Source: Hahellaceae bacterium
GTDB lineage: Bacteria > Pseudomonadota > Gammaproteobacteria > Pseudomonadales > Oleiphilaceae
DNA: 64,000 bases
Assembly: GCA_024234575.1 (NCBI GenBank)
Contig: JACKOB010000009.1
Span: 35,282-99,281 of the forward strand
Direction of reading: 5' to 3'
In this document: piece after piece, positions 4,025 to 53,991 of the stretch
How positions within the stretch are numbered: position 1 is the stretch's first letter
Layout of the letters: each line of letters opens with the position of its first letter
Notes under the pieces: generated by a model
The model's input: only the letters and a program-made list of their open reading frames with translations
Databases searched by the model: none
What the model was told of the DNA's origin: nothing
Made by a program: the position numbers and the translations under genes

Positions 4025-4039
4025 CGACAGAGTTTGTCG
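4025..4039 (-). promoter_or_regulatory. CGACA-N5-TGTCG box upstream of polB
   Basis: Perfect 5-5-5 palindrome, CGACAAACTCTGTCG on the minus strand. Unlike the other copies, the hexamer 11 nt downstream is TTATTA, not TAnnnT, so the promoter is less certain. On the plus strand TATTTT lies 10 nt away but no near gene would use it. Confidence 0.55.
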
Positions 4040-4389
4040 CTTACAATGTTATTTTGTTGTCAATGTTAGTTTTTAAGGCGTGTCCATAGTAGAACATTAT
4101 GTAAAAAGGGCTTCCATGGTTTTTTGGAACCATCTGCCGCAGGGATGCGGCAGTTGAGCGCCCAGGGATGGGTTTACAGCGCGTTCCAAAAAACCATGGA
4201 AGACCTTTGGGCGGCACGATGTCCCTTTAATTTAAGACCCAAACATAATTTAAGACGCTAACGTAATTAAAGGCCCTAAAAGAATGCGATAACCTCGCAA
4301 AAATTGTTTAGTCTAAAGCGTCTGCATCTTGTTTAATCTGACAACGCTTTAGGTACACTGTTTCTCACTTTATAAATAAGAAAAATCAT
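4040..4389. other. Intergenic region between polB and recC
   Basis: 350 bp between divergent genes. It holds a 20-bp perfect inverted-repeat element (4111-4202) and, nearer recC, a 9-bp inverted repeat, CTAAAGCGT at 4313-4321 with ACGCTTTAG at 4344-4352, which could be an operator. I see no convincing sigma-70 promoter and no CGACA box serving recC. Confidence 0.5.
4111..4202. repeat. Palindromic hairpin element, REP/MITE-like
   Basis: The left arm 4111-4130 and right arm 4183-4202 are perfect 20-bp inverted repeats (CTTCCATGG then a T run and GGAAC). One more pair-rich stretch extends outward with a single mismatch. Inside is a second hairpin, CTGCCGC-AGGGAT-GCGGCAG at 4134-4153, and a repeated AGGGATG. 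No coding capacity and no second copy in the window. It resembles dispersed palindromic repeats of gammaproteobacteria. Confidence 0.75.
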
Positions 4390-7300
4390 ATGCTTAAACT
4401 TTATTCCGGCAACAAGATGGAAACCTTGGTAGCCAAACTGCACGAGAAGATTCTTCGCTCAGGCGCGCATCCATTGCAAACGACGCAAATCATTGTGCAA
4501 AACCGTGGCATGCAGCATTGGCTTAACATGCAAATGGCGGATGCCGTTCCCGGTGGCGTATGCATGAATATCAAGTATTCACTTGTCGCCAGTTATCTCT
4601 GGCAGATAATCCGCCTTTGTGTGCCCGATGCTCCCCGTACCAATCCATTCAGTCGCGAGCTGTTGGTCTGGAACATCTACGACACCTTAGGTGAAGATCA
4701 AATTCTTAATCATCCGCTGATGCAAGAGCCGTCAGACTACTGGTTTAACAGTCATAATACGGCAGCTCAGCAGTCACTTAAACGTTTTCAACTGGCGCAA
4801 GCGCAAGCGGATCTTTTTGAACAATATTGGATGTACCGTCCCGATTGGATCGAGTCTTGGGAAAAGGAAACCGCTGATCACTGGCAAGCGCTGCTATGGA
4901 ACAACCTTGATGCTAACAGCATTTATAACCCGATTAAGCTCATTAAAAAGGCACAGGCTGAACTTCGGCAGATTCGCCATAAATTGCCTAAAGAGGTCTA
5001 TATTTTCGGCATCAATTCAATGCCACCACTGTATGTTGACTTCCTTTTCGAGTTATCCAAACAGCAAAACATCACGTTGTTTTTATTAAACCCTTCTGAA
5101 GAATACTGGTTTGACCTGATCAGCGAAAAAGAACTGGCTCGTAAAAAAGGCCAGCATTTACGAAAAAAAGCAGAAGCAGAACCAGAAGCAGAAAGTACCG
5201 CCCTTAACGTCACTGACTCCCTTTTCTCATCATTGCCATTTGAAACCGGCAACCCGATTTTAGCCGCACTGGGGCGTCAGTCTCAGGAGTTTTTCGAGAT
5301 TTTGTACAACAACGCCTCTTTACAGGATGAGCAGGTTTACCAACGCCCCGACCGGACAACAGTTCTACATCGACTGCAAAATGATTTATTCCATTTAACC
5401 GATGCACGACAACAAACAGATGCCGCCATCGACGATAGCATAAGCATTACCTCTGCCCACAGCCATTTGCGCGAAGTACAGGCGCTGCACGATTGGTTGT
5501 TGGCAAAACTTGACGCCGACAGCACGCTAAAACCGCAAGACATCATCATAATGTGCCCGCAGATTGAGGCATATGCACCCTATATTCAGTCTGTTTTTAA
5601 CCCAACTTCTTTACCTTTTAATCCGCAACAGCCCAAACTCCCCTGTTCGATTGCCGACAGAAAAGAAAGCGATAGCAACCCGCTGATTCAGGCTTATCTT
5701 AACCTGTTAAAACTGCCAGACAGCCGGTTTCAAATTAGCGAGATTCTGGGTTACCTGCGCCTTAATGCCATCCAGAATAAGTTTAATATCAATGATGAAG
5801 ATCTTCAGCTTTATGAAGTCTGGCTAAGTGATGCGGCGGTGCACTGGGGGTTAAATGGCGAGCACAAATCCCGCTTGTTGGCTAACGAGATGACCCGCGA
5901 GCACCCGCCTGAAAACATTGAGCAATGGGCAACAACACAGTTTACCTGGCAGCAGGGGTTGGAGCGATTGCTACGGGGCTTTGCTTATGGTGATGATAAA
6001 GCGTTGGTTGGCAACCAGATCTACCTGCCCTGGGTGGAAGGTGATAACGCGATAAAATTGGGCAACCTTATACGACTGATTGAGCAGCTTTCCCAGTCTA
6101 GTGTTTATCACCGTACTGAACGTACCGCTCAGCAATGGCAACTGTGGCTGACCGAGCTCTTCGATAATTATTTTACGCCAGATAATGATGAGCTAATCGC
6201 CGCAGAAACGATTCAGGAAGCCATTGGCAAACTTGCCGAAAATACCCTGCAAGCCGGTTACGGCGATAAAATCCCACTCGAAATCGTTAGCTACTTTCTC
6301 GAGCACCAGTTTAGTCAACCCGAGCAGGGTCGGCAGTTTATGACAGGGCAGATAACCTTTTGTTCAATGCTGCCAATGCGCAGTATTCCCTTTCGGATTA
6401 TTGGCGTGTTGGGGATGAATGATGGTGAGTTTCCTCGCCAACGCCCGCCTTATGGATTTGATCTTTTGGCCCAGTCAACCCGACGTAAAGGTGATCGATC
6501 CCGGCGTGATGAAGACAGGTGCCTGTTTCTTGAGGCGCTGGTTTCGGCCAGAGATGCGCTCTACCTCAGCTACCAAGGTAATGATGCCAAGAACAACACC
6601 GAAAAACAGCCTTCCCTCGTGTTAGCCGAGCTGTCGCATTATCTCCATAAAGGTTATTGGCACCCCTCTAAAGAGAACCAGGTAATGCTTTCTGGTGTGT
6701 TACGTAAACTGCCATTGCAGCCATTTAATGAAAAAAACTATCAACCGCCTTTTAGTAGTTACGATGGCAAATGGCTCGCCCTGGGCCAAAATGCCAAGCA
6801 GGTATGCGACACGAGCACAGAAACAATGTTGCCGGAGATTTCAAATAGTCTGAATGAGGCTATCGATATTGCTGATTTAGTCACGTTTTTTAATAACCCG
6901 CCAAAAGGTTTTGCGCGCAAACGGCTAGGTTTGTATTTGGATGATGACAGCGGCGCTCTAGCAGCAGATAGCGAACCCTTTACAACCAATAACCTTGATC
7001 GATATAAAACCCAAAGCCACTATATCTGTCACGAACTAAAACAGGCACGCACACCAGCTAATGTCACGATAGACCCAACTAATGATGCGTTAGAAACTGA
7101 TGAGGTCACTCGGTTAAGCTTACTGGCCGGGCACTTACCCGCCACACCCACGATGGCAATACAACTTGATGAATGGCGCGAACAGGCGCTGCAATTTACC
7201 GCGCAACTGCAGGAAATCGGCGCAGGCACCGTAATGGATACGCGAGTGCAAACAACATCCGGAGAGTCAGTGATACATGCACGCCTGCCCCTGTTAACTT

Positions 7301-7893
7301 TTACAGGTACCGCTTTACCCACTAAAACGACTACTGAAAGCGAAAACCCTTCAAACTCAGTTCTGCTGTTTTGGCGCCTTGCTGATATAAAAGGCAAAGA
7401 CATCGTTAACCTTTGGTTGCATCATTTAATGGCCAATATTACCCGCGGGCCAACACATACCATTGGCGTATTTAGAGCGAAAGGTAATCAACCCAGTTTA
7501 CAAGGCTTTGCACCAGTACAAGACGCAGCCAGTGAGTTGCTAAAATGGCTGCATTATTGGCACAAGGGATTAACCCAGCCCTGTTTTGTTAATGCAGACC
7601 TTGCCAAAGAGATACTGACCAATGAAAAATTTTCTGCCAGCCATTACGCCAACTACTGGCAGGCTGACTTCCAGCAGCAGGGGTTAATCTACGACCCTTA
7701 TTATGCTTACTTTTGGCAGGTGCCGCCGGTTTATGATGAGGATCTTATTGGCTATGCAGAATCGCTTTATGGTCTGGCAATGTCATCATTAGAAAGCTGG
7801 TCAGCAGAAGAAGTTAAAACCATTCTCACAAACATTAGAGTACCCCAATCTGATGCGATCAATACTGCCGATCAGAGGGAGTCACACGCATGA
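4390..7893 (+). CDS. recC: Exonuclease V gamma subunit RecC (copy 1)
   Basis: RecC binds and splits the DNA ends handled by RecBCD and recognises Chi. The N-terminus LYSGNKMETL followed by QNRGMQHWLNMQMAD is the RecC signature; the middle VLGMNDGEFPRQRPPYGFDLL and RRDEDRCLFLEAL match the inactivated helicase part typical of the family. Length 1167 aa against 1122 aa in E. coli. The ATG at 4390 heads the operon; its ribosome site is weak. The stop overlaps the recB start by four bases (ATGA), so the three subunits are translationally coupled. This copy differs strongly in sequence from the second RecC at 60680-63787. Confidence 0.95.
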   Translation: MLKLYSGNKMETLVAKLHEKILRSGAHPLQTTQIIVQNRGMQHWLNMQMADAVPGGVCMNIKYSLVASYLWQIIRLCVPDAPRTNPFSRELLVWNIYDTLGEDQILNHPLMQEPSDYWFNSHNTAAQQSLKRFQLAQAQADLFEQYWMYRPDWIESWEKETADHWQALLWNNLDANSIYNPIKLIKKAQAELRQIRHKLPKEVYIFGINSMPPLYVDFLFELSKQQNITLFLLNPSEEYWFDLISEKELARKKGQHLRKKAEAEPEAESTALNVTDSLFSSLPFETGNPILAALGRQSQEFFEILYNNASLQDEQVYQRPDRTTVLHRLQNDLFHLTDARQQTDAAIDDSISITSAHSHLREVQALHDWLLAKLDADSTLKPQDIIIMCPQIEAYAPYIQSVFNPTSLPFNPQQPKLPCSIADRKESDSNPLIQAYLNLLKLPDSRFQISEILGYLRLNAIQNKFNINDEDLQLYEVWLSDAAVHWGLNGEHKSRLLANEMTREHPPENIEQWATTQFTWQQGLERLLRGFAYGDDKALVGNQIYLPWVEGDNAIKLGNLIRLIEQLSQSSVYHRTERTAQQWQLWLTELFDNYFTPDNDELIAAETIQEAIGKLAENTLQAGYGDKIPLEIVSYFLEHQFSQPEQGRQFMTGQITFCSMLPMRSIPFRIIGVLGMNDGEFPRQRPPYGFDLLAQSTRRKGDRSRRDEDRCLFLEALVSARDALYLSYQGNDAKNNTEKQPSLVLAELSHYLHKGYWHPSKENQVMLSGVLRKLPLQPFNEKNYQPPFSSYDGKWLALGQNAKQVCDTSTETMLPEISNSLNEAIDIADLVTFFNNPPKGFARKRLGLYLDDDSGALAADSEPFTTNNLDRYKTQSHYICHELKQARTPANVTIDPTNDALETDEVTRLSLLAGHLPATPTMAIQLDEWREQALQFTAQLQEIGAGTVMDTRVQTTSGESVIHARLPLLTFTGTALPTKTTTESENPSNSVLLFWRLADIKGKDIVNLWLHHLMANITRGPTHTIGVFRAKGNQPSLQGFAPVQDAASELLKWLHYWHKGLTQPCFVNADLAKEILTNEKFSASHYANYWQADFQQQGLIYDPYYAYFWQVPPVYDEDLIGYAESLYGLAMSSLESWSAEEVKTILTNIRVPQSDAINTADQRESHA

Positions 7894-10800
7894 AAAAACT
7901 AGACGCGCTTAACTTGCCCCTCGCCGGTCGTCATCTTATTGAGGCCAGTGCGGGCACGGGCAAAACTTACAATATCACCCTGCTCTACATTCGACTTTTG
8001 CTCGAAAAAAAGCTGTCGGTACAACAAATACTGGTTGTCACGTTTACCCGCGCCGCCACAGAAGAACTAAAAGGCCGTATTGCCAGCGTTTTACGGGAAT
8101 GCCTTGCCAACTGGGGGAATTATCAACCGGATGAGGGATTTTTCTTCGACTTGCAGCAACGCACAGACATTGCAGAAGCCAAAATTTTACTGGATGAAGC
8201 CCTGCTTACTCTGGATGAAGCTGCGGTCTATACGATTCATGGCTTTTGTAAACAGGCACTCACACAACGGGCATTCGAAACAGGCATGACGTTTGATGCG
8301 CAAATGGAAGTGGATACCAAAGAAATATCGTTAGAAGCTGTACGGGACTGGTATCGACGTCTGGCCATTAACGCTAGCGCCTATCACCTTGTCGAGGCCG
8401 AATGGGCAGCGCCGGAAAGCTTTTTAAACGAATTTGCAAATCTTATCTATACAAAAGAGCCATTCGAATATGACGATGTTGAACCTGCCGCCAAAGCGTT
8501 CCAAGCATTAAAAGAAAGGATCGCGTCGGAATTGGTAGGCCACATGCCAGAATTAATGGCCTATGCCGATACGAAAGGTGGCAGCCACGGTCAAGATGAG
8601 CTGGCGCAATTAATCAGCTGGCTGGATGCAGCGTCGGATATACCACCCCCGTCTGTTGAAGGGGCGTTTTTTAAATATATGCCAAAGGCGGTAAAGCCGT
8701 TACTAACGCCTTTGAAAGAAGTGTGCGACACATCTAAATCTGGCCCTTTTGCACAACTGCAAAAATTAAAAGCGATTAATTTGGCGGCAGGGGCCATAAA
8801 CTGGTGCCGGATACGCATTGCTACCGCAAAGCAAAAACGCAATCAGTTTGACTTTAACGATCTGATCAATTCGCTGCACCATGCATTATACCAATCCCCA
8901 GGGAAAGACCGGTTAACGCTGGCACTGCAACAACAGTACCCGGTAGCCCTGGTAGATGAGTTTCAGGACACGGATCAATCACAATTTGAGCTGTTTGACG
9001 CCATCTACCCTGCTTCGTCTAACGCTGTTGCCCTGTTTATGATAGGCGACCCCAAACAGGCAATTTACGGATTTCGCGGTGGCGATGTATTTGCTTATCT
9101 TAACGCCCGTAAACTGGCAACGCATCACTGGTATATGGATACCAACTGGCGATCAACCCCGGCACTAGTGCAAGGCTACAACCAACTGTTTACTGGTCTA
9201 AGTCACGACAGTCTGGATGCGGTCTTTCGTTTTGGTATTGAGTATGCCGCCGTTGCGGCTTCCAACAAAACTGCGGAGCATCCACTACAGGAGACCACCC
9301 TGGCGTCTGGCGTGAAACATCATGCGCTGGCATTTGTTTACTTTCCACCCAACGAGAAATATCAGCCTAAAAACACGAAAAAAACCAACCCTCCTCATAC
9401 GAAAGCATTTCAGACAGTGATTGCTAATTGGTGTGCAACCGAAATAAGTTTCTTGCTAAGTGGCACCACTCAAATCGGAACTAAAGCATTAAGTGCCAAT
9501 GACATTGCCATACTGGTACGTAATAAAAACGAATCCGCCGAAATGCAAGCTGCATTGGCCGATGCAGGTATCTCGTCGGTTTATTTAAGCGCCAAAGACA
9601 ATGTCTTTGAATCAAAAGAAGCGGTTGCGCTACAGCGATTGTTAGCAGGTGTACTTGAGCTTGAAAACACCCGCAAAATGATCGCTGCCTTGTCGACGGA
9701 GTTTTTTGGATTAACACCTGTTGATCTGGCTGGTTTAAGTGAAGATGAATTACGCTGGGAAGCCTTGCGGGAGCAGTTTGTATCCTTGCGCGAACAATGG
9801 CTGCATCAGGGTTTAATGCCAATGGTTTTTACACTGATGGAAACCAGCTACCAGCCAAACTCGGCAAGCAGCGAAAGATCGCTCACCAATACGCTGCACC
9901 TTTTAGAGCTGTTACAAACAGCCAGCGTTGAACATACGTTGCCTGAAACGTTACTGGCCTGGTTTGAAAGTGAACTGCACACACCCTCCAAAGCCAGTGA
10001 CAACGAACTACGCCTGGAAAGTGACGACAACCTCATTCAGATTGTGACGCAACATGGCTCTAAAGGACTGGAGTACCCTATTGTCTTCGTACCCTTTGCG
10101 TCGTATTTCAGTAAGAGGACGAAACGTTCGTTAACAATGACTTATCACCATCGGGATAATTACTGTGCCAGTACCTTTTTAGGTGATAACAGCCGAATAT
10201 TTGCCTGGTACGAAGAAGAACAACAAGCCGAAGATGTGCGTTTGCTGTACGTGGCCATCACCCGAGCAATCTATCGTTGTTACCTAACGGTTACCGCCTT
10301 TGCCGAAGGACATCTGTCACCATTGGGTTTAATGCTCAACCTACCTGATGCCGAGCCGCAAACGCTATTAGCAATGCTGGCCGATCACCAGGCTAAACAA
10401 CCCGAGGCGATTTCATTAAACACCGTTGAAGGTGACAGCTTTCATCCTGTGGCGACGGCTCTTACGACAGCAAGTGACCAGCCCACAGCCCACACCAGCG
10501 TTTTCACGCGCGGCTTGGACGATCGATGGCGGATACACTCGTTTTCATCGCTGGCGCACTGGCAATTACGCACGCAGGCATCCAGGACTCTTCGTGACCC
10601 TGAAGCTGACCGCCAGCTTGCGCCAGCGCTTCAACCGCAAGCTACCAACGGCATTCGCTTCGAATTTACCAAAGGTGCCGAAGCAGGTAACTTTTTGCAT
10701 ACCCTGCTTGAAACTATCAACTTTTCTGAACCAAACTGGCGTGATTGCGACGACTTGATTTTTGCCCATTCGCATTTGGTACTCGACCAACAGGAAGCGC

Positions 10801-11423
10801 TAATAAACTGGCTGAACGAGTGCTTATACACAGAACTACCCTGTGGTGTGAGCCTAAACCAGATTGCAGAAGACCGCTTGCTTAAAGAAAGCAGCTTTTA
10901 TTTCAGCATACCTAAATTAAAAGTCGACAAATTATTCGATTGCTTAGTAGCCCATCGACAATCTCAGCCCGCTGTGGATGACACACCGTTTATTCTTCCG
11001 AATCAGAATGAAATCAACGGCATGATGTGCGGTTTCATTGACTTAATTTTTGAGCACGACAATCGTTATTATATCGTTGATTATAAATCGACATTTTTAG
11101 GTGCTGCCTTCTCTGACTATCAAACGGAAGCACTTAGAAAAGATATTGAAGCGTCCAGTTACGATCTGCAATTTTTAATCTACACCCTCGCCTTACACCG
11201 ATACTTAAGGCAGTGCCTTCCTGGCTATCAGTGCGAAACCCATTTAGGTGGTGTGTATTATTTATACTTGCGTGGTTTGCAAAACGGGCAAGACGAAGCA
11301 GAACCGACCGGTATATTCCACACGTCTGTTTCGTCAGAAATCATTAACCGCCTAGACCAGTTATTTCTCGATGATTCCCCATCGAATCAAAACGAGCGGA
11401 CACACACCGAGGTGCATTCATGA
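7890..11423 (+). CDS. recB: Exonuclease V beta subunit RecB (copy 1)
   Basis: 3'-5' SF1 helicase plus nuclease of RecBCD. Walker A EASAGTGKT at residues 18-26, Walker B VDEFQDTD, helicase motif IGDPKQAIYGFRGGD, and the C-terminal nuclease motif IVDYKST (about residue 1062) preceded by GFIDLIF, with the conserved Gln and ALHRYLR downstream. Both activities therefore look intact. Length 1177 aa, close to the 1180 aa of E. coli. It overlaps recC and recD by four bases each. It processes double-strand breaks for recombination and degrades phage DNA lacking Chi. Confidence 0.96.
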   Translation: MKKLDALNLPLAGRHLIEASAGTGKTYNITLLYIRLLLEKKLSVQQILVVTFTRAATEELKGRIASVLRECLANWGNYQPDEGFFFDLQQRTDIAEAKILLDEALLTLDEAAVYTIHGFCKQALTQRAFETGMTFDAQMEVDTKEISLEAVRDWYRRLAINASAYHLVEAEWAAPESFLNEFANLIYTKEPFEYDDVEPAAKAFQALKERIASELVGHMPELMAYADTKGGSHGQDELAQLISWLDAASDIPPPSVEGAFFKYMPKAVKPLLTPLKEVCDTSKSGPFAQLQKLKAINLAAGAINWCRIRIATAKQKRNQFDFNDLINSLHHALYQSPGKDRLTLALQQQYPVALVDEFQDTDQSQFELFDAIYPASSNAVALFMIGDPKQAIYGFRGGDVFAYLNARKLATHHWYMDTNWRSTPALVQGYNQLFTGLSHDSLDAVFRFGIEYAAVAASNKTAEHPLQETTLASGVKHHALAFVYFPPNEKYQPKNTKKTNPPHTKAFQTVIANWCATEISFLLSGTTQIGTKALSANDIAILVRNKNESAEMQAALADAGISSVYLSAKDNVFESKEAVALQRLLAGVLELENTRKMIAALSTEFFGLTPVDLAGLSEDELRWEALREQFVSLREQWLHQGLMPMVFTLMETSYQPNSASSERSLTNTLHLLELLQTASVEHTLPETLLAWFESELHTPSKASDNELRLESDDNLIQIVTQHGSKGLEYPIVFVPFASYFSKRTKRSLTMTYHHRDNYCASTFLGDNSRIFAWYEEEQQAEDVRLLYVAITRAIYRCYLTVTAFAEGHLSPLGLMLNLPDAEPQTLLAMLADHQAKQPEAISLNTVEGDSFHPVATALTTASDQPTAHTSVFTRGLDDRWRIHSFSSLAHWQLRTQASRTLRDPEADRQLAPALQPQATNGIRFEFTKGAEAGNFLHTLLETINFSEPNWRDCDDLIFAHSHLVLDQQEALINWLNECLYTELPCGVSLNQIAEDRLLKESSFYFSIPKLKVDKLFDCLVAHRQSQPAVDDTPFILPNQNEINGMMCGFIDLIFEHDNRYYIVDYKSTFLGAAFSDYQTEALRKDIEASSYDLQFLIYTLALHRYLRQCLPGYQCETHLGGVYYLYLRGLQNGQDEAEPTGIFHTSVSSEIINRLDQLFLDDSPSNQNERTHTEVHS

Positions 11424-13477
11424 CCGTTAATCAATCATCCCTCGCACCATCGCCGAACGCTATTAACCAGCATGCCGACGAGCAGTATGAGTTGCCAAGT
11501 TGTGCCGCTTTTCTTGCAGAACATGCGGATAACCAAGCAATTGACTACTACCTGGCGCGAGACTTGTGTCTGTCTGCCAGCACTGTCACCGATACCCTTT
11601 TTTACACCATGGTGCGATTAAGCCAATCGTTACGCGGTGGGCACAGTTGCTTGCAGCTGGCTTATACCAGTGGACAATCGTTACGACTAATTGATAGTGA
11701 AGATGAAACGCCAAATGCTGAGACTCGCAACCTTAAGCCTTTTCCCGAGGTAAGTGTCTGGAGGAATATGCTTAACACTACCGGACTGCTTGATCACCCT
11801 AACAGTTTGATCGTGCTTGAAAAAGACAGGCTCTACATAAGGCGCTACTGGCGGTTTGAACAAGACCTGGCATCGCGCCTGCGACACTTTATTAACAGCG
11901 CCAGCCATTACCATGCTGCAGACGTCAAGTCTGTCGTTGATAAGCTCTTCCCGATACAGCACGACGCTGCAGAGACCGATTGGCAAAAGGTGGCAGTCAT
12001 CAATAGTGTGTATCAGCAACTAGGCATTATTGCCGGCGGCCCCGGAACAGGGAAAACCACCACGGTTACAAAATTACTGCTGGCACTGCTTGCGTTAAAC
12101 CGGCAACAACAAAATGAAGTAAAAATAAAACTGGTAGCCCCTACCGGGAAAGCTGCGCAACGTTTACAAGAATCTATCACGGAAAAAAAACAAGAATTTT
12201 TAAAAAGTGGATTAGCAGACCCTGAGGTGCTATCGCTTATTCCGGCTACAGCCAGCACCCTGCATCGGTTGCTGGGTTACATTCCCAATCATTACCAATT
12301 TCGACACCATGAAGACAACCTGCTCGACCTCGATATACTGGTGGTTGACGAAGCATCAATGATTGATCTCCCTATGATGACCCGGCTTTTTCGCGCACTG
12401 CCAGATCATGCCCATGTCATTCTACTGGGTGACGCCGACCAACTACCCTCCGTCGAAACCGGCAGTGTGCTGGCAGAACTCGTTTCTCGCCCGCACCCGG
12501 GCTACTCGCATAATCGTTGCGAATTAATCCAGTCCATTGATGGGGGTAATGTTAGGCAAACACCACAAGTGTCTGAGCTAACGCAAGCTGTTAGCTCAGA
12601 TCATGTGACCCTGCTGCAAGAAAGCTATCGCTTTCGTGCTGATGGCGGTATCGGCAACCTCGCCAAAGCAATTATTAAAGGGGATGCTTACGGCAGCTGG
12701 AATATATTGGAAGAAAAAAATGCAGAATTGGGATTGCACAAAGTTGCAGAAGCTACGGGCGCTGGCGCCGCAGAACTGGATCAGACAGAATTTCTAAACT
12801 GGTTACTTCAACACCACTTGCCACTATATCGAGACTACCTAAAAGCAGACACTGTAGCGAAAGCGCTAACGATATTTGCCCGCTTTCGTATCCTGACCGC
12901 GACGCGGGTTGGCCCTATGGGTGTAACTGAGCTAAACACACAGATTGAGCAAATGCTTTGGAAGAACAAACTCATCCAATTGCCAGCTAAAAAAAATCTT
13001 CAACGCACTGCCTCTCACTACCATGGGCGCCCTGTAATGGTGACAGAAAACGATTATGCCAGCGGCTTATACAATGGCGATATCGGCATGATATGGCGAC
13101 GCGAGACAGCCGAAGAGTCTTTCGATAACCAACCCGCTACGGTACAAGCGCGTTTACAGGCGGCATTTTTTAACAGCGATGGCGGCATCAAATGGGTTTC
13201 TTTGGCACGATTGCCCAAAGTTGAAAGCGTATTCGCGATGACCATTCACAAAACGCAGGGGTCAGAATTTGATCAAGTGGCATTAGTATTACCTGCAAAG
13301 CCTGGTCGATTACTATCAAGAGAGCTTATTTACACAGCGGTTACCAGAGCCAAAACCAAGCTGGACGTTTTTTCTCGCCAACATGTCTGGCGATTTGCTG
13401 TCGAGCAAACGGTTACCCGCTATGCAGGCTTGCGTGAGAAAGTGTTGGTCGAACCAGAAGCGCATCAAAGCGCCTAA
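11420..13477 (+). CDS. recD: Exonuclease V alpha subunit RecD (copy 1)
   Basis: 5'-3' SF1B helicase, third subunit of RecBCD. Walker A GGPGTGKTTT near residue 205, Walker B VVDEASMIDLP, and the C-terminal TIHKTQGSEFDQVAL and YTAVTRAK motifs are all present. At 685 aa it is longer than the 608 aa of E. coli and of the second copy here; the extra length includes an insertion after the Walker B region (around EL VSRPHPGYS to QAVSS). The four-base overlap with recB fixes the ATG at 11420. It ends 32 bp from the convergent Gre-like gene with no clear terminator between. Confidence 0.95.
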   Translation: MTVNQSSLAPSPNAINQHADEQYELPSCAAFLAEHADNQAIDYYLARDLCLSASTVTDTLFYTMVRLSQSLRGGHSCLQLAYTSGQSLRLIDSEDETPNAETRNLKPFPEVSVWRNMLNTTGLLDHPNSLIVLEKDRLYIRRYWRFEQDLASRLRHFINSASHYHAADVKSVVDKLFPIQHDAAETDWQKVAVINSVYQQLGIIAGGPGTGKTTTVTKLLLALLALNRQQQNEVKIKLVAPTGKAAQRLQESITEKKQEFLKSGLADPEVLSLIPATASTLHRLLGYIPNHYQFRHHEDNLLDLDILVVDEASMIDLPMMTRLFRALPDHAHVILLGDADQLPSVETGSVLAELVSRPHPGYSHNRCELIQSIDGGNVRQTPQVSELTQAVSSDHVTLLQESYRFRADGGIGNLAKAIIKGDAYGSWNILEEKNAELGLHKVAEATGAGAAELDQTEFLNWLLQHHLPLYRDYLKADTVAKALTIFARFRILTATRVGPMGVTELNTQIEQMLWKNKLIQLPAKKNLQRTASHYHGRPVMVTENDYASGLYNGDIGMIWRRETAEESFDNQPATVQARLQAAFFNSDGGIKWVSLARLPKVESVFAMTIHKTQGSEFDQVALVLPAKPGRLLSRELIYTAVTRAKTKLDVFSRQHVWRFAVEQTVTRYAGLREKVLVEPEAHQSA

Positions 13478-24959: not shown

Positions 24960-24989
24960 AAGGCATGCAAACATAATTTGGAGGTCGAC

Positions 24990-36093: not shown

Positions 36094-36125
36094 ATAATAA
36101 ACCTTGGTTTCGACGATCCTTGTCG
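36094..36125 (-). promoter_or_regulatory. CGACA-box promoter of the unknown-AAA+-sirtuin operon
   Basis: Minus strand CGACA-AGGAT-CGTCG (36125-36111; one mismatch in the proximal half), 11 nt, TATTAT (36099-36094). It sits in the 76-bp gap after the PP2C gene, so the operon has its own start in addition to any readthrough. Confidence 0.7.
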
Positions 36126-37778: not shown

Positions 37779-37827
37779 ATAGTAACCCAGAGCAGCGACA
37801 GCGGTTGTCGGAATACCCATTTACCTT
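37779..37827. promoter_or_regulatory. Bidirectional CGACA-box promoter (glycosylase / sirtuin-like)
   Basis: One palindrome CGACAGCGGTTGTCG at 37796-37810. Plus side: 11 nt then TACCTT (37822-37827) toward the sirtuin-like gene. Minus side: 11 nt then TACTAT (37784-37779) toward the glycosylase. Both fit TAnnnT at the same distance. Confidence 0.75.
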
Positions 37828-38534: not shown

Positions 38535-38641
38535 ATCTTAAAAAATCTGAAAACTACCCAAAAGCATGATAAACGCTACACTAAATGGCATGTACTTATC
38601 CAAGAATACCGTTTCAAATTACGCGTGCCATGAGGAAGAAA

Positions 38642-39751
38642 ATGCCAAAACCCAGCAACCCGGTCCTTGAACTCTTTGAACAGAAGATGCACGGCAATGT
38701 GAATGATGCCCTGCAAATTCTAAAGCTATTAAGCACCAAGCATTGGTTGACAAGGACAGAAATTCAAGAAAAACTGCTAAACTTATATTCAAATAATCCA
38801 ACGCTCCCGCACTCAGACGCGTGGTACGAAAACAAAAACTCCAATAATCCAAGTACAAGAAAAGACACTCTCGGAAGACGGGTTGGGCGGGCTGTCGATA
38901 TTCTTCTTGCCAATGACTTGGTCGAAGAAGCAACAGAAGGCAACGCAAAAAAACACCGCCTTACGCCTGAGGGTGTCGATGCCCTTAAGTACGGCCAAAT
39001 TGAGCAAAACAATATATCCGAAGAGCTCTTGCTAACTTTTGCCAAGTCGATGATGAGCAGTGAAGACTACGATGCGCTGCATATCCAAAATAACGAACTC
39101 AACCCGCTGCTGCGAAACCGCAATTGGAACAACAAGGTTAGAATCATATCTAATGGCCTGGAATTCTCTTCGCTTCAACCGATAAATGCTAACGTCTTGG
39201 ATGTTGTTTACGACAGCCTGTTCAACCAGAAAAAATTTACCGCAATATACAAAAATGTCGCCGATATAAATCAGGATATCGACATTAAGAAATCCTATGA
39301 GTTTAACCCGGTTTGGATCGTCTCCAGAGCGGGTGTTCTCTATTTAGTCGCCACCCTCTGGCACTATAAAGACCTTAGACACTTTGCTCTGCATAGGCTA
39401 ATGGACGCAAAACCCCTTGATACAGATGCTGTGATACCCGATACCACCCTGGATGAATACCTCGAATCGGAAGCGTTTCAGTACCCCACGGGTGATGGTG
39501 AAATAGAACTAAAACTGCGCGTTGCCCCCGACCTTAGTTTTATTGTGATGGAAAAATACCTCTCTGAAAACCAGACCTGCGATGAGCAAGCAGATGGCTC
39601 GATCGTCATGACCGCTACACTCACCGACACCTGGGAACTTCGACACTGGTTATTCTCGCTAAATTCTAACGTCGAAGTCATCGGCCCGCCGCATCTAAGG
39701 CAGTGGATCAAGGACCAGGTGGTTGCCATGTTGGGGAGTTATGTTGATTGA
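38642..39751 (+). CDS. WYL-domain transcription regulator
   Basis: 369 aa from ATG 38642 (GAGGAAG ribosome site). An N-terminal winged-helix-like region (LTRTEIQEKL to GRRVGRAVDILLANDLVEEA) is followed by the WYL domain (FNPVWIVSRAGVLYLVATLWHYKDLRHFALHR, written here with a break after VLYLVA) and a C-terminal WCX part ending in WELRHWLFSL and VEVIGPPHLRQWI. This architecture is that of BrxR/CapW repressors and PafB/PafC activators, ligand-sensing regulators of defence and DNA-damage genes. It lies 107 bp behind the sirtuin-like gene with no promoter of its own visible, so it is probably in the bidirectional-box transcript. Confidence 0.85.
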   Translation: MPKPSNPVLELFEQKMHGNVNDALQILKLLSTKHWLTRTEIQEKLLNLYSNNPTLPHSDAWYENKNSNNPSTRKDTLGRRVGRAVDILLANDLVEEATEGNAKKHRLTPEGVDALKYGQIEQNNISEELLLTFAKSMMSSEDYDALHIQNNELNPLLRNRNWNNKVRIISNGLEFSSLQPINANVLDVVYDSLFNQKKFTAIYKNVADINQDIDIKKSYEFNPVWIVSRAGVLYLVATLWHYKDLRHFALHRLMDAKPLDTDAVIPDTTLDEYLESEAFQYPTGDGEIELKLRVAPDLSFIVMEKYLSENQTCDEQADGSIVMTATLTDTWELRHWLFSLNSNVEVIGPPHLRQWIKDQVVAMLGSYVD

Positions 39752-41993: not shown

Positions 41994-43365
41994 CGCAAGG
42001 GCCTCCCAGTGCCACAATTTTGTTTGTCAGTGCCGGGCCAAATTGCGAGTCGAAGTGGCCATCCTTTATCTGTAGATCAAAAATGTTGTTTACGTCTTTC
42101 ATAAACCGCGCCTTTACACTTTTAGTATCTCTAATATTATTCGGGTCCACGGTCAGTTTAAAAGCATCAAGATAGCTAAAACATTGCTGCGGGGTGTAAC
42201 TAAGTGCTATCCAATCTAGTACCGGATTGTCATTTATAAAGGCAGGGATGGAGCTTTCTCGCACTGATTTTTGATTAGTCACCCGCCGCGAATACACTAC
42301 TCTAAACAACTTTTTAGCAGCAGACTCCAACTTGTACTCACCAAACTGACTGATATACATCAGCAAACAGGTTTCAAATAAATCTTGTAGATAGCCGCAC
42401 CCTTCCAACTCTCTAAGACTTATGCAGAAATCAACGTAGCCTTTAATATGAGGCAACTCGAGGTTTTTCCAGTACTTATCACGTAGTTTCTGAAAGTAGG
42501 CCAAATAGTTTACACAGTTTAGCCCCGCGTTTATCGGCTGGCGGACATCATACCCCTGCTGAAAAATCGCGTTACGCAGATCACCACAAGGACTAGAAAT
42601 ACTTCGTATTCGAATGAAGGAAACATCGTCGCCTATATCCGTGTTTTCCCCGAACTCCGACACAATACAATCCCGGATCGGTTTTGGTTGCCTATGTGAC
42701 GGTACATTTCGAGGTTGAATACGCTGCCAATATCGGCCTTTGAGCAGTGCCATCACCACTGAGTTCAAATCACCCAGCCTTTCCCATTGCCTGGCGCTAT
42801 TGGTCTGATGTACTTTGGGTACAGCTCGCAGATGATGCGCCTTAATGATATCTGGCCCCGCTAAACGAACCCCGCCTGTATTTTGAGTTTCAAAAAAACG
42901 ATATGCATCATCTTCTGATTGAGTAACCACCAAGGTAAATTGAATTCGATTAAAATCAACCCAATTTTTCCACTGTGAAAGCCCACTACGAAGTCGTTCA
43001 ATATTTTTTAGAATCTGTTGATGACTAATAGACGATGTATATTCTAAAGATATCTCCTGGACCTGCTCACTGATTAATCCCAAGATGGCTAGCGTCGAAA
43101 TACGTTGTTGTCCATCAATGATATTTAATTGCTCTTCAGTCTGATGCAGAATCAGGCTTCCAAGGTAATACGGCAACTCAGCATCTCTTTCGAAGTGAAC
43201 GCGAAAGTCGCGCAAAAGGTCGTCTATTTGCTTATCCTGCCAACAATAGGGGCGCTGGTACTCTGGGATGGTAAGTTTTCCCTTAATTTCTTTACCTTCG
43301 CTAGATTGAATAGTTTTTTTTTCGAATAACTCCCGCGCCGTGCAGGTCGCAACTATTACACTCAT
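41986..43365 (-). CDS. Second DUF262 protein, without HNH domain
   Basis: 459 aa. PEYQRPYCW and IIDGQQRISTL define DUF262; ETQNTGGVRLAGPDIIKAHHLR matches the next conserved block. The C-terminal part is helical and shows no HNH/DUF1524 motif, so it probably supplies a sensing or NTP-dependent role and relies on the coupled downstream protein for DNA cleavage. ATG 43365 starts the two-gene unit. Two adjacent palindromes about 290 bp upstream may control it. No CGACA box is found here, so this unit looks outside the regulon. Confidence 0.85.
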   Translation of the reverse strand: MSVIVATCTARELFEKKTIQSSEGKEIKGKLTIPEYQRPYCWQDKQIDDLLRDFRVHFERDAELPYYLGSLILHQTEEQLNIIDGQQRISTLAILGLISEQVQEISLEYTSSISHQQILKNIERLRSGLSQWKNWVDFNRIQFTLVVTQSEDDAYRFFETQNTGGVRLAGPDIIKAHHLRAVPKVHQTNSARQWERLGDLNSVVMALLKGRYWQRIQPRNVPSHRQPKPIRDCIVSEFGENTDIGDDVSFIRIRSISSPCGDLRNAIFQQGYDVRQPINAGLNCVNYLAYFQKLRDKYWKNLELPHIKGYVDFCISLRELEGCGYLQDLFETCLLMYISQFGEYKLESAAKKLFRVVYSRRVTNQKSVRESSIPAFINDNPVLDWIALSYTPQQCFSYLDAFKLTVDPNNIRDTKSVKARFMKDVNNIFDLQIKDGHFDSQFGPALTNKIVALGGPCDE

Positions 43366-44028: not shown

Positions 44029-45321
44029 TTAGTCCTGATCTTCTGAACTAAATTGAACGTCAATACCAGATTGTCTAAGCCATTGATTCAGGTCCAGCCA
44101 GGCACCAGATGAAAGGTCAGTGTTGTTAACCCCCCTAAACTCAGATAGCAATTTGGATTCAGACTCCTTTGCGATCAGTTGCAATACACCAACTTCATTA
44201 GATACAGGGTTTTCGTAGTAATAATGATCAAATTTCCCAGCAAGATTATCCATATAGAAATTTGCTACGCAGCTGTTCAATTTCTCCCCAACTTCTTGAA
44301 TCATAGATAAGCTGTTAATGTGCGAAAATAATGCATTTCCAAGAATGCGTGGCGCAGGAAACGTTGCAGCTAAAGACGCGTTATTTGACTTCCACTCTAA
44401 GAATTCATCGCCAAGTACCCAGACCAACTTCCTATCAATTCCACTGAATATTTGATGGTAAACAAGGGCAATGTCTGCGACAGCCTTGCAATTTTTAAGT
44501 TTGGAAAAAATTCTTTGCCTGCTTTTATCCGAAATTCTTTCACAAAAATAGCTGAAGTCGCCTAAAAGCAACAACTGTTCATCACCTATACCCTTGTCAC
44601 GAATTTCTCGGGCAACCGACGGAAGCAATTTAATAAAGGTGGCCTCATGATAGGCATTGCTCAAACGTGCCATTCGTTTCACGCTTGGGACAAAAAAGTG
44701 GCCAACCCACTCACGTTCTCGCATCAAAAAACTGCACACATTATTAAAATCATCATAACTGGAATCGAACTCAAGCTTTGCCAATTGCTTTCTTACCTTA
44801 TTGGTAAATTTAGGCTCTCTTGTAAATGTTTCCGCCATGCTTTGATGGGTGATCCTATCTATAGGCGTTGAAATATCCCAAGTGATAAGAGCTGGTATAC
44901 TGCAAACGATCTCTATAAACGCTAAGGGGTAATCGTATTGGTCCAGCCATGGCTGGCGAACAAGATAATTGTAGTAGCCGAGCCAATTGTCTGGACCGAT
45001 TCGCGCCACGATATCCAAAGCTTTTAAATGGATTCCTTTTCCTGCAGATGAAGACGACGCTTTCACCAGTTCAAGCAGGTTTTTAAGTGGTATCGGTAAC
45101 TTTTTTAACGGCTTCTCTCCCCCTGAATCACTAAAACGATGAAACGATAACCTCTTGTCGGTGCATATTTTAATAACAAAGGTAAATCTACATTTTTTTG
45201 TCACTACGATGACGGTGATATCTTCGAAACCGTCTTCAATAAGCGAATATTTTCTGCCGAGAACAGGCTCATATGTTTCAACCAAATCTCGTCCACAAAA
45301 CACAGTCGAACTACCTTTCAT
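44029..45321 (-). CDS. PcfJ-like protein
   Basis: 430 aa. Toward the end, EVGEKLNSCVANFYMDN, then YYYENP..GVLQLI and LSEFRGVNNTDLSS resemble the conserved core of PcfJ-like proteins (a Cys-Val pair, a strand reporting on an amino-acid-like ligand, and an R-G-x-N motif). The family is linked to conjugative plasmids and accessory islands; its role is not known. The N-terminal 270 residues are unrecognised. The ATG at 45321 is preferred over 45339. It begins inside the 3' remnant of the decayed sirtuin on the same strand, so its upstream region was reshaped by a rearrangement. Confidence 0.55.
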   Translation of the reverse strand: MKGSSTVFCGRDLVETYEPVLGRKYSLIEDGFEDITVIVVTKKCRFTFVIKICTDKRLSFHRFSDSGGEKPLKKLPIPLKNLLELVKASSSSAGKGIHLKALDIVARIGPDNWLGYYNYLVRQPWLDQYDYPLAFIEIVCSIPALITWDISTPIDRITHQSMAETFTREPKFTNKVRKQLAKLEFDSSYDDFNNVCSFLMREREWVGHFFVPSVKRMARLSNAYHEATFIKLLPSVAREIRDKGIGDEQLLLLGDFSYFCERISDKSRQRIFSKLKNCKAVADIALVYHQIFSGIDRKLVWVLGDEFLEWKSNNASLAATFPAPRILGNALFSHINSLSMIQEVGEKLNSCVANFYMDNLAGKFDHYYYENPVSNEVGVLQLIAKESESKLLSEFRGVNNTDLSSGAWLDLNQWLRQSGIDVQFSSEDQD

Positions 45322-45976
45322 AATTATCCAACGCCTCACTCAACTTTCCTAATGCGCTGATCGCTGTTGAATGAATGAAAATACAGTCACTTTCATGTTG
45401 CTCCCATGAAGAACTAGATATCCACGAACTATCATTAAACATAAGGAAGTTAGGCCGCGCTACTCCCCCGCATGCTGGACAGGCCAATACACTTTTGCTT
45501 ATTAATAACTCCAAAAATTTCTGTCTTCGAATACATTGCATGCCCATGTAAGCCCCACACATTTTTAGTACATCGGCCCGCACATTGATATTTAAAAATG
45601 CTGCCATGGCACTCATATATACTCGCAGGTGAAAAGCCAGACCGTTGAAAATGGCCATCAACATTGCTTGTATAGACGAAGCAGCCACCACGCTTATCAT
45701 CAATCATTGCTTTTAGATGCTGGTAACCTTTGTGATGCTCTGTAGATAAATACTACCGAATCGCACCCTGTAATAAGACCATGCCGCTTCAGGATCTTTT
45801 CTAAACCATATCGGATTGATCAAATCCTCAATATCAACATCTTCGGTTTGATAAAGCCCATTAGCCCCTCGGAAAGTCAACAAAACAGAGTCTGCACTCA
45901 TTCCCGCACCAGCAATAATAAATACGGCATCCGCTTGCCTTATTTTTTCTACGGCTCTTGTCAGGCTCGATATCAT
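45311..45976 (-). pseudogene. Decayed sirtuin, two frameshifts and truncated
   Basis: Three frames together give one Sir2 protein. Frame 1 (45976-45713): VFIIAGAGMSADSVLLTFRGANG. Frame 2 from about 45760: HHKGYQHLKAMIDDKRGG then FVYTSNVDGHFQRSGF and YECHGSIFKYQC. Frame 3: SVLACPACGGVARPNFLMFND. Each block aligns with the intact sirtuin at 32528-33373 (YTSNVDGQF, ECHGS, ARPNICMFNDEKWIS). The end after WISS is lost or scrambled and runs into the PcfJ-like gene. It has no CGACA box. It is a dead paralogue of the operon sirtuin. Confidence 0.8.
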
Positions 45977-47363: not shown

Positions 47364-47525
47364 TTAATATTTCATGCACACGGTTCTTGATCCGGTCGTA
47401 CCAAATTTAGCGCATATTTCAGGCGGAATATCTTGCAAAGTAAGCACATCAGAGTGCGGCGGCACAATTTTCTTCCAACCACAGTTAGAACAAGTGTAAA
47501 TGCGTGCGGGTTGCATAAAGGCCAT
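47364..47525 (-). CDS. Zinc-ribbon small protein, degraded copy
   Basis: 53 aa, shorter than the usual ORF cut-off. The first 20 residues (MAFMQPARIYTCSNCGWKKI) are identical to the intact copy at 49267-49464, but the second Cys pair is broken: the intact KKCDDCGST is here ICAKFGTTG, so only three zinc ligands remain. The promoter, ribosome region and first third of the gene are 98% identical to the other copy because of a 123-bp duplication. It is either an altered paralogue or a failing gene under a still perfect CGACA box. Confidence 0.65.
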   Translation of the reverse strand: MAFMQPARIYTCSNCGWKKIVPPHSDVLTLQDIPPEICAKFGTTGSRTVCMKY

Positions 47526-47588
47526 GGTTCTTTTCCTTTTTAAAGAGTAAAGAAATCATACAACCTGAATCCGACAAACACTGTCGTA
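47466..47588. repeat. 123-bp direct repeat, copy 1
   Basis: Matches 49405-49527 with two mismatches (47481 A/G, 47544 A/T). It covers the zinc-ribbon gene start, ribosome site, -10 and CGACA box, and the two copies flank about 1.8 kb carrying the broken phosphodiesterase and the PD-(D/E)XK-like gene. Confidence 0.9.
47555..47586 (-). promoter_or_regulatory. CGACA-box promoter of the degraded zinc-ribbon gene
   Basis: Minus strand CGACA-GTGTT-TGTCG (47586-47572), 11 nt, TATGAT (47560-47555). The predicted transcript starts about 47548, 23 nt before the ATG. Confidence 0.72.
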
Positions 47589-49266: not shown

Positions 49267-49464
49267 TCACATCCCAAACAGCCACTTTTTTAATTTGCTC
49301 CCCAATGTTTCATACCGATAACCCTTAATCTCCGTAGACCCGCAGTCATCGCATTTTTTAGGTGGCATATCTTGCGGTAGCATCGCATCGGGATGCGCAG
49401 GGATAATTTTCTTCCAACCGCAGTTAGAACAAGTGTAAATGCGTGCGGGTTGCATAAAGGCCAT
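49267..49464 (-). CDS. Zinc-ribbon small protein, intact copy
   Basis: 65 aa: YTCSNCGWKK and KKCDDCGST form two CxxC knuckles, a rubredoxin/zinc-ribbon fold, followed by a basic helix (GSKLKKWLFGM). Such small ribbons bind DNA, RNA or protein partners. ATG 49464 has AAAGGAAAA upstream and lies 23 nt after the predicted start of transcription. It is one of two copies created by a 123-bp duplication; this one keeps all four cysteines. Its exact role is unknown; regulation by the CGACA box ties it to the regulon. Confidence 0.75.
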   Translation of the reverse strand: MAFMQPARIYTCSNCGWKKIIPAHPDAMLPQDMPPKKCDDCGSTEIKGYRYETLGSKLKKWLFGM

Positions 49465-49527
49465 GGTTCTTTTCCTTTTTAATGAGTAAAGAAATCATAC
49501 AACCTGAATCCGACAAACACTGTCGTA
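49405..49527. repeat. 123-bp direct repeat, copy 2
   Basis: Partner of 47466-47588. Includes promoter, start and first residues of the intact zinc-ribbon gene. The shared block ends just beyond the CGACA box, at 49527. Confidence 0.9.
49494..49525 (-). promoter_or_regulatory. CGACA-box promoter of the intact zinc-ribbon gene
   Basis: Minus strand CGACA-GTGTT-TGTCG (49525-49511), 11 nt, TATGAT (49499-49494). Predicted start about 49487. Confidence 0.75.
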
Positions 49528-51771: not shown

Positions 51772-51820
51772 AGATTAAACCAGCCTTCCGACAAATCTTG
51801 TCGGAACCATGAGTTACCCT
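51772..51820. promoter_or_regulatory. Bidirectional CGACA-box promoter (rtcB operon / unknown gene)
   Basis: Palindrome CGACAAATCTTGTCG at 51789-51803, embedded in the longer TTCCGACAA/TTGTCGGAA. Minus side: 11 nt then TAATCT (51777-51772) for leader-rtcB-prfH. Plus side: 11 nt then TACCCT (51815-51820) for the 51905 gene. Confidence 0.75.
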
Positions 51821-51904: not shown

Positions 51905-52807
51905 ATGTTGACAAAAAGACAGTCTCGTAGCGTTCAGCAACGAAAAAAATCACTTTATTCGAACAACTTTAGTGGCTTTAAACGTATTAACCGGCTGTTT
52001 TTGGATGCGATAGAATTTCAGCAAGCCTATGATGAGCATATATGGGCAGAGATTGTTTTGCAGAGCAATAATTGTATTGGTGCTGATTACGACATCATGC
52101 TTGAAAGCGAAGTCGCTGTTTTTGATGAAAGTAATCAACTGATCGCCAATCAGTCAAATCAATTGGCCAATATCACCCATGGTTTGTTTTTTAATCAGAG
52201 CGACTATATCCGCCAATATCCTGACCGGTCGTCCAAGCAACTTGACCTTGAAATCAAACCAGAACACCTTAAAAGCCCAATCGACCTATTACCTTATCAA
52301 TGCTCTCTTTATAGGCGATTGGAAAGCTTTAGTGAGTCCATGGATTCATTGTCAGCGTCAGATAATATCAAGATCATCTACACCTTAAGTCGACAATTCG
52401 AGCCTAACTATAGTGATGCCAGAAACCCACCCGTAACACACGCTAGTCACTTTGACTTCTGGGCTCCGCGACTTTTAGAGTGGATAAAAGGGCTGACACC
52501 CATAACGCTGTCATCAGCCACAAATAAATTTACCTGGGAACACCACACTCCCCATTACAACATCCAACTTTTAGACGCCTCAGGCTGGGTTGAGTGTGAA
52601 TTTAAAATCTATGGTGAAATCACAAAAGGCGCCGATACAAGCATTTCGTCACCTTACGATAAAACATCAAATTACGTTTTGATTGATGCGCTAAGACATG
52701 AATACTGCCGTAGCTCACATCGAAACATCCCTTTTTTCTTGAATTGTGACCGTGTGGATCAATTCTCGGTGAGTATTTCTCAGGCATTGGGGGAGTGTGG
52801 TTGGTGA
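51905..52807 (+). CDS. Unknown 300-aa protein, divergent from the rtcB operon
   Basis: Begins MLTKRQSRSVQQRKKS and carries many basic residues in the first 20, then mostly mixed alpha/beta sequence (YDIMLESEVAVFDESN, HYNIQLLDASGWVECEF). No motif or family is recognised; the C-terminus ends with LNCDRVDQFSVSISQALGECGW. ATG 51905 follows CGGAG. The gene shares one CGACA palindrome with the rtcB-prfH operon, with a correctly spaced -10 on each side, so it is likely co-induced with ribosome repair. Candidate new partner in that response. Confidence 0.6.
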   Translation: MLTKRQSRSVQQRKKSLYSNNFSGFKRINRLFLDAIEFQQAYDEHIWAEIVLQSNNCIGADYDIMLESEVAVFDESNQLIANQSNQLANITHGLFFNQSDYIRQYPDRSSKQLDLEIKPEHLKSPIDLLPYQCSLYRRLESFSESMDSLSASDNIKIIYTLSRQFEPNYSDARNPPVTHASHFDFWAPRLLEWIKGLTPITLSSATNKFTWEHHTPHYNIQLLDASGWVECEFKIYGEITKGADTSISSPYDKTSNYVLIDALRHEYCRSSHRNIPFFLNCDRVDQFSVSISQALGECGW

Positions 52808-53067: not shown

Positions 53068-53814
53068 CTAAATCGCTCGCTCCCCCTTAAGCCACTTCCC
53101 TACCACCCAAGGGACCATACTTGAGGCTTTCGCACGAATAAACTCATAGCCGAATGGCTTTTCAACGACATCTAATGACACCATTACTTTCTCTGCGTGA
53201 TAGCTGGCTTTCTTTAACAATCCTGCCGCTGGATATACGCTTAAGGATGTACCCACTACCAGTATTCGTGCGGCATCCCTAACATGAGCTTGTGCAGTAC
53301 CATGGTGCATTATCGGCTCACCAAACCACACGATGTGCGGCCTTAACTGGCTTCTTAACTCACACGTATCCCCCATTGATATCGATTTGCAACCTATATC
53401 ATAGATCAATGTCTCGTCGATGCTGCTGCGTGCTTTGGTTATTTCACCGTGAACATGGATGATATTGGAGGAGCCTGCCCGCTCATGAAGATCGTCAACA
53501 TTTTGTGTTATCACCACGACTTCATATTGCTGCTCAAGCGCGACGATTGCCTCATGCGCTTCATTTGGCTGAGCATTACATACGTTTTCTCTGCGCTCAT
53601 TATAGAAATCAAGCACCAGTTGGGGGTTTTTCGCCCACGCTTGAGGCGAGGCGACTTCCTCCAGAGAATACTCATTCCACAATCCATTGGCATCGCGAAA
53701 GGTTCGAATGCCGCTTTCTGCACTGATCCCCGCACCGGTAAATACAACGATTTTCTTTTTATCTAATGTTCTTGTCATTGGCTGTAGTTGCTCGTTTTCA
53801 TGCATGCTGGCCAT
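53068..53814 (-). CDS. cobB: CobB-type sirtuin deacylase
   Basis: VVFTGAGISAESGIRTFRD, TQNVDDLHERAGSSN, HVHGEI with the catalytic His and VVGTSLSVYPAAGL give the complete Sir2 active site. Only two (IGCKSISMGDTC) of the usual four zinc cysteines remain; the first pair reads ARSS, as in metal-light CobB variants. About 248 aa from ATG 53814, where AAGG lies just upstream; longer starts up to 53883 lack a ribosome site. It has its own perfect CGACA-box promoter 150 nt upstream. Removes acyl groups from lysines using NAD+. Confidence 0.88.
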   Translation of the reverse strand: MASMHENEQLQPMTRTLDKKKIVVFTGAGISAESGIRTFRDANGLWNEYSLEEVASPQAWAKNPQLVLDFYNERRENVCNAQPNEAHEAIVALEQQYEVVVITQNVDDLHERAGSSNIIHVHGEITKARSSIDETLIYDIGCKSISMGDTCELRSQLRPHIVWFGEPIMHHGTAQAHVRDAARILVVGTSLSVYPAAGLLKKASYHAEKVMVSLDVVEKPFGYEFIRAKASSMVPWVVGKWLKGERAI

Positions 53815-53959
53815 CCTTACCTTACAATAGAAAATCCAGTGGCCTTTGCTTGATTGTAATACCAACCTGGAGAGTTCCTGCACCTTGATTCAGTGATTTG
53901 AAGCGGCCATGGTCTGCTTGCCTCTGGGGTGACATTACGATTTGTGATTCATTAATGTC

Positions 53960-53991
53960 ATTGTATCTGAGGGTTGCGACAATGAGTGTCG
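53960..53991 (-). promoter_or_regulatory. CGACA-box promoter of cobB
   Basis: Minus strand CGACA-CTCAT-TGTCG (53991-53977), 11 nt, TACAAT (53965-53960). The plus side has no -10 at this spacing, so it drives only cobB. Confidence 0.75.

Follow-up and report, generated by a model that had tools for sequence, protein, structure and literature searches.

Phased palindromes in a Hahellaceae defence and repair island point to promoters of a putative DriD-type WYL activator

What controls the defence and repair genes gathered on a 64,000-nucleotide (nt) stretch of a Hahellaceae bacterium genome (contig JACKOB010000009.1, positions 35,282 to 99,281; hereafter the window)? An original prediction, made from the letters and their open reading frames (ORFs), listed eleven palindromes of the form (C/A)GACA-N5-TGTC(G/T) and proposed that they belong to an activator-dependent promoter class served by a WYL protein. 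In our analysis this is the best-supported reading, with one site, 4025, departing from its spacing rule. Going by sequence comparison and by analogy with DriD of Caulobacter crescentus, we consider it probable that the palindromes are putative sites of a DriD-type homodimeric WYL activator, most likely the product of the gene at 38585-39751, which would run a defence and repair regulon. Little is understood of how defence islands are turned on, and BrxR and CapW, the WYL regulators reported from them, act as repressors.

Sites were scored against the 15-bp palindrome CGACA-N5-TGTCG over its 10 fixed letters. The palindrome was confirmed at all eleven listed places (4025, 24928, 27904, 29451, 32194, 36111, 37796, 47572, 49511, 51789, and 53977), with scores of 9 or 10. 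Ten of them are exact copies of GACA-N5-TGTC, while site 36111 has a single mismatch to it. The palindromes are intergenic, and all but 4025 lie between 24.9 and 54.0 kb; about ten operons have one ahead of them. The window holds 11 exact copies of GACA-N5-TGTC, the ten listed sites plus one at 37260, which sits inside a UDG-like ORF and has no -10 hexamer 11 nt past it. Across 300 simulations, exact palindromes were expected at a mean of 0.64 and a maximum of 4 per window, and the composite of palindrome, 11-nt spacer (N11), and -10 hexamer arose 0.01 times per simulated window, as against 13 orientations found. A relaxed scan (8/10 letters, N11, [TC]AnnnT) gained only 46232- and 18992-, each with 8/10 letters, where the sign after a coordinate gives the strand. 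The pattern is not a product of chance, and its predicted excess over random sequence was borne out.

The palindromes keep a fixed phase to the -10. With each of the 11 exact sites read both ways (22 orientations), a TAnnnT hexamer starts at offset 11 in 12, whereas between offsets 0 and 40 offset 10 occurs twice and no other is seen more than twice. The thirteenth N11 orientation is 36111-, so the prediction's count of twelve in thirteen was right in substance. These -10 hexamers match 3 to 6 of 6 letters, and a plausible gene lies downstream in 12 of the 13 orientations; 47572+ (TAGCGT), followed only by ORFs of 60 and 51 codons, may be a chance match. The claimed lack of a -35 held for all 13, with a best match of 1 to 3 of 6 letters at spacers of 16-18, and none of the 13 promoter sequences has TG at -15/-14 (an extended -10). 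The operator ends 11 nt ahead of the -10 in these orientations and hence neither overlaps it nor lies past it. At site 4025, by exception, TATTTT is at N10 towards recC and TTATTA is at N11 towards polB.

The candidate activator is encoded at 38585-39751 on the + strand. Pfam identified WYL and WCX domains in its product; its winged helix is seen only in a predicted model, with a mean pLDDT of 67. When a WYL profile was compared with solved structures, DriD scored best (E 9e-19), ahead of PafBC (4e-16), BrxR (3e-5), and CapW (6e-5). The fold model also scored best with DriD, making it the best solved relative by profile and predicted fold.

DriD is likewise a homodimeric WYL-WCX regulator with a palindromic site, described in the available text by the consensus ATACGAC-N7-GTCGTAT with the core CGAC-N7-GTCG; its sites cover the -35 at a constant distance to the -10, the -35s are poor or absent, and DNA-repair genes are targeted (PMC12340889). 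CGACA-N5-TGTCG, matched at the eleven places, contains this core. The three printed DriD promoters match the core in 8, 6, and 6 of 8 letters, and in all three a -10 can be placed 11 nt past the palindrome (CAATCT, CAAGGT, and CAGAAG), a placement that is our reading of the printed sequences and not the paper's figure; the third promoter, bapE, has no T at -7. In all three the tenth spacer base is G, corresponding to -14 when counted as here, and G-14 is named as conserved in DriD promoters (PMC12340889). The systems differ in several ways: for Caulobacter, the targets named in the available text are didA, bapE, recJ, dnaG, and one divergent operon rather than defence islands; the outer half-site reads GTCGTAT there, and TGTCG followed by an A/T-rich flank in the window; and DriD -10s start with CA, those of the window with TA (PMC12340889).

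The original prediction had instead drawn a likeness to PafBC of mycobacteria, which, according to the available text, is also a WYL activator of a DNA-damage regulon but a heterodimer (PMC11804915). Promoter DNA is described as being touched by the PafB domain only. Pfam scans of 40 window ORFs found one WYL gene, so no second subunit for a PafBC-type heterodimer was found among them. By its consensus, PafBC recognises one half-site without a palindromic partner, and TGTC stands 12 nt from the -10 as it does in the window. The likeness named the right superfamily, but DriD appears to be the better fit, as judged by the homodimer, the palindrome, its core, the 11-nt phase, and the profile and predicted-fold scores. 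SiwR of Mycobacterium smegmatis, as described in the available text, is also a homodimeric WYL activator, responding to genotoxic stress and having an imperfect palindrome between -35 and -10, but that palindrome is 19 bp long, of other sequence, and serves one adjacent operon (PMC10693628).

If the first base of TAnnnT is taken as -12, the 15-bp site would span roughly -38 to -24, the stretch in which sigma would look for a -35. Lacking that element, the promoters would need the regulator. If it works as DriD does, DNA damage or infection would give a signal that lets the WYL dimer bind, and the bound dimer would recruit sigma70 polymerase, switching on defence, NAD-related, RNA-repair, and DNA-repair genes together. 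For a regulon of this type, single-stranded DNA would be the expected effector. Binding by the 38585-39751 protein, activation, and the signal are what we infer from this analogy.

The whole-genome scan suggested with the prediction was carried out in other genomes with the regulator family. To follow the pattern outside the window, we surveyed 369 genomes (the class of G002), assigning proteins to the WYL subfamily at E below 1e-40 and to generic WYL at E below 1e-10; proteins of G002, G030, and G223 are part of the profile. The pattern CGACA-N5-TGTCG-N11-TAnnnT gave 32 matches in 23 genomes, and the same palindrome with N7 gave 12 matches in 11 genomes (22 for its reversed control). As the reversed pattern was not a clean control, three others were used instead: scrambled palindromes, genomes without the WYL subfamily, and the palindrome with N7. 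The WYL subfamily occurs in 30 of the 369 genomes: in 10 of the 23 with the pattern vs 20 of the other 346 (Fisher 1.5e-6), or 7/20 vs 20/346 when G002, G030, and G223 are removed (p 2e-4), and in none of the 11 N7 genomes. Generic WYL proteins were found in 11/22 N11 genomes and 5/11 N7 genomes, and only the high-scoring subfamily separates the two groups (9/22 vs 0/11). A WYL gene lies within about 8 kb in only 5/30 N11 regions and in 0/12 N7 regions.

The 30 WYL loci (525 kb) hold 22 exact palindromes; three simulations gave 0, and six scrambled versions of the palindrome gave 0 to 3. Of these loci, 13 have an N11 site. The offset of [TC]AnnnT from their exact sites peaks at 11 (11/44 orientations, 3 at the next-highest offset), as it does at the 9/10-letter level (23/148, 9 at the next-highest offset). 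Since the scrambled palindrome CAGCA-N5-TGCTG reaches 64 at that level vs 74 for the real one, the excess is clear only for exact copies and for the offset peak. The 20 WYL loci from genomes not picked by the pattern have 11 exact palindromes, vs 0 or 1 in eight simulations, and offset 11 in 12/94 (next 6). Genome-wide, 122 exact palindromes were counted in 30 WYL-positive genomes (86 Mb; present in 28 of the 30) vs 82 in 52 WYL-negative genomes (137 Mb), p 9e-10; the negative set comprises numbers G005 to G060, is not a random draw, and includes five pattern-positive and two small genomes. The contrast stays at p 5e-8 without the profile genomes and the repeats of G140, where six of the seven palindromes are identical (CGACAAAAGGTGTCG) and spread over contig 1; they probably represent a repeat element, not binding sites of a regulator.

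A protein search returned 5 WYL homologs, the window's own among them, and a scan of genome contigs gave 4 WYL loci (L001-L004: Sphaerotilus, Leptothrix, and unclassified); no WYL locus was found in the viral contigs scanned. In each of L001-L004 a palindrome of 9 or 10/10 letters comes directly after the WYL gene, and the hexamer at N10 is CACACT or GACACT. On a P. aeruginosa plasmid, CGACAGGATTTGTCG-N11-TATTGT lies about 330 nt upstream of a WYL gene, separated from it by a small zinc-ribbon ORF, and on a Vibrio plasmid CGACGCAATTTGTCG-N11-TATAGT lies 127 nt upstream of one. A Marinomonas plasmid has no site adjoining its WYL gene and one 9/10-letter site about 1.8 kb off. For the flanks, 30 exact N11 sites were taken from picked loci, 29 of them from WYL-bearing genomes or records and some orthologous between two Sphaerotilus genomes. 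In 87% of these 30 sites C comes next after TGTCG, vs 15% of 20 window flanks, where the two following places are A or T in 100% and 90%. Sphaerotilus natans carries both WYL genes of the subfamily and N11 sites. A diverged winged helix reading diverged flanks in the window would fit this. Judged by sequence, the promoter class extends beyond this island.

Similar genes recur behind the sites. Double-AAA ATPases 28-30% identical to the window's stand behind N11 sites in the WYL-positive genomes G367, G211, and G292 (twice, one of them 326 nt from the site), and in L002 two genes come after the palindrome, one for a double-AAA ATPase with 30% identity to that of the window and one for SIR2 with 48%. 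Other N11 sites precede an AAA protein and a PD-(D/E)XK protein (G030), an ADP-ribosylglycohydrolase (G367), GmrSD_N/DUF7834 (G155, 269 nt off), an HD domain (G076, 434 nt off), a WYL gene (G002, 289 nt off), and recC (G162). Seven other full-pattern sites are inside longer ORFs and look like chance.

The recC gene deserves separate mention. In the window, the perfect palindrome at 4025-4039 lies between polB (DNA polymerase II; - strand, ORF start 55 nt off) and recC (+ strand, 350 nt off), with recC, recB, and recD following at 4390-13477 on the + strand. Of 20 WYL-positive genomes, four (G076, G292, G110, and G162) have an exact palindrome at a distance of 90 to 142 nt ahead of the recC match, as against none of 13 WYL-negative loci. 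The expectation is about 0.0004 per locus, and the excess over it is significant; the contrast between WYL-positive and WYL-negative alone is not (p 0.12). Spacing to the -10 varies at these sites (N11 TAGCAT, N11 GATACT, N10, and N12), as at 4025. Because recC palindromes with varied spacing recur in other genomes, 4025 is a probable true site.

Several observations weigh against assigning the sites to the 38585-39751 protein as a DriD-type activator. The reversed N11 pattern is nearly as frequent as the real one (27 vs 32 matches). The subfamily is missing from 13 of the 23 pattern genomes, 17 of the 30 WYL loci have no N11 site within about 10 kb, and the WYL-RtcB-AAA locus of a Methylomonas plasmid has none at 8/10 letters. 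Searched by itself against solved chains, the window protein gets no better than E 0.015, and the DriD profile match spans WYL-WCX with the DNA-binding part outside it. The protein also has a longer winged helix than its relatives, and one of two conserved arginines named for single-stranded DNA binding in PafBC seems to be Ala here (FALHR); the other seems kept as R252, the mapping onto PafBC R211/R214 being our own. With a view limited to the 64-kb window, the regulator may also be a different protein.

In one rival reading, the WYL-driven promoter class would be real, and its activator would be a second WYL protein elsewhere in the genome. The diverged, longer winged helix, which is without the RTVQRDL-like helix of other members, speaks for this, as does the presence of the subfamily twice in some of its 30 genomes (G002, G042, G110, and G203). 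On the other hand, the WYL gene lies mid-island behind site 37796+, and the window flanks are unlike those at other loci, which is what joint divergence of protein and sites would produce. We regard a second protein as having some chance of being right, though a small one. Quite unlikely, in our estimate, is a BrxR/CapW-type repressor that would occupy the palindrome as its operator, keep polymerase out, and let go upon infection. As far as the available text goes, BrxR and CapW are defence-linked WYL regulators that repress through inverted repeats (PMC9122601, PMC9122588), and the site here would cover the -35 region. However, CapW has its sites over the -10 and BrxR of E. fergusonii has its site beyond the -10, while in the window the -10 is free and at a fixed phase. 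Promoters with no -35 and no extended -10 in 13/13 orientations should be weak when free, and the profile and fold scores for BrxR and CapW fall below those for DriD. Ownership of the palindrome by a LexA-like damage regulator or another non-WYL factor seems highly improbable. The WYL link rests on co-occurrence, and in other bacteria LexA controls polB and further repair genes; against this, the sites share their core and phase with DriD, and genomes with the pattern tend to have the WYL subfamily as well.

Taking the DriD-type activator as the preferred reading, a wider proposal, on which we are evenly divided, would be a modular, SOS-independent response run by DriD-like WYL activators across Gammaproteobacteria (in the GTDB sense). 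A defence or repair operon would join through a single CGAC-N7-GTCG/N11/-10 promoter, RecBCD, the main nuclease of repair and phage defence, would be a target in some lineages, and diverged winged helices and flanks would keep regulons apart. The principle is already known; host range, breadth, and targets are new. At the level of titles and abstract starts, the literature gave nothing that treats this motif, connects a DriD-type regulon with defence islands, or places recBCD under a WYL regulator, which is weak evidence of absence as most subscription papers and bioRxiv were outside the coverage. A shared activator promoter would offer a sequence handle by which regulon members could be read from genomes. 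Double-AAA, SIR2-like, and zinc-ribbon genes of unclear role would gain a damage or defence context, and control of recBCD by a WYL activator becomes a directly testable idea.

The individual sites are as follows, each span including palindrome, N11, and -10. At 24928-24959 (+), AGACATCCGTTGTCG with TATAAT precedes the cpYpsA (SLOG) gene at 24978-25472. On the - strand, CGACAACAAATGTCT with TATAAT (27887-27918) has as its next ORF 27477-27734, of 85 amino acids and no Pfam match, CGACAGAGGCTGTCG with TATACT (29434-29465) precedes a DnaB-family helicase gene (28019-29449), and AGACAAGCAATGTCG with TATGAT (32177-32208) precedes a FliG_C-containing ORF (30878-32107). The one-mismatch palindrome CGACAAGGATCGTCG with TATTAT (36094-36125, -) leads to 35633-36058 (141 codons) and possibly also serves the double-AAA and SIR2 genes after it; the double-AAA ATPase is at 33407-35575 (-), and its family also stands behind the palindrome in other genomes. 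Two palindromes would serve both directions. The first, 37796-37810 (span 37779-37827), has TACTAT on the - side before a UDG-like and then a PP2C-like gene, and TACCTT on the + side before a SIR2-like gene and then the WYL gene. The second, 51789-51803 (span 51772-51820), has TAATCT on the - side before RtcB-PrfH, 318 nt from RtcB, and TACCCT on the + side before a 300-codon ORF (51905-52807). At 53960-53991 (-), CGACACTCATTGTCG with TACAAT precedes a SIR2 gene (53068-53883).

The remaining two sites form one duplicated unit of promoter and zinc-ribbon ORF. CGACAGTGTTTGTCG with TATGAT (47555-47586, -; the TAGCGT on its + side is doubtful) precedes the ORF at 47364-47525, and its duplicate (49494-49525, -), also with TATGAT, precedes that at 49267-49464. 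The prediction that downstream genes are not homologous to each other fails for 47572- and 49511- and for the two SIR2 targets. The two units, promoter included, are at 47364-47586 and 49267-49525, and their zinc-ribbon ORF carries CSNCGWKK; a similar small CxxCxW ORF stands behind the motif on the P. aeruginosa plasmid; a small zinc-ribbon ORF may be a recurrent partner of the promoter.

Some further features were observed. The LexA box of E. coli type, CTGT-N8-ACAG, was tried as a candidate motif and rejected, being found twice in the window (7291 and 19330), near chance, and at none of the sites. Two complete recC-recB-recD sets are present, at 4390-13477 and 55025-63787; no palindrome was found upstream of the second at 8/10 letters in the sequence within the window (63600-64000). 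In G223 (L063, about 7725-7990) and G106 (L064, about 2207-2579), intergenic palindromes with N11 -10s precede a 78-codon ORF, in which an FtsZ-like glycine-rich motif was seen by eye; the one scanned had no Pfam match. Between the GmrSD genes and 46063, a SIR2-like coding sequence (45311-45976, -) looks broken by eye, its split ORFs being 45713-45976 and 45311-45703/45450-45707. At 39978-43365 (-), two neighbouring GmrSD-type genes, the second with DUF7834, have no palindrome of their own, and PADLOC scored them for the HEC-06, Orf5, and SspE models.

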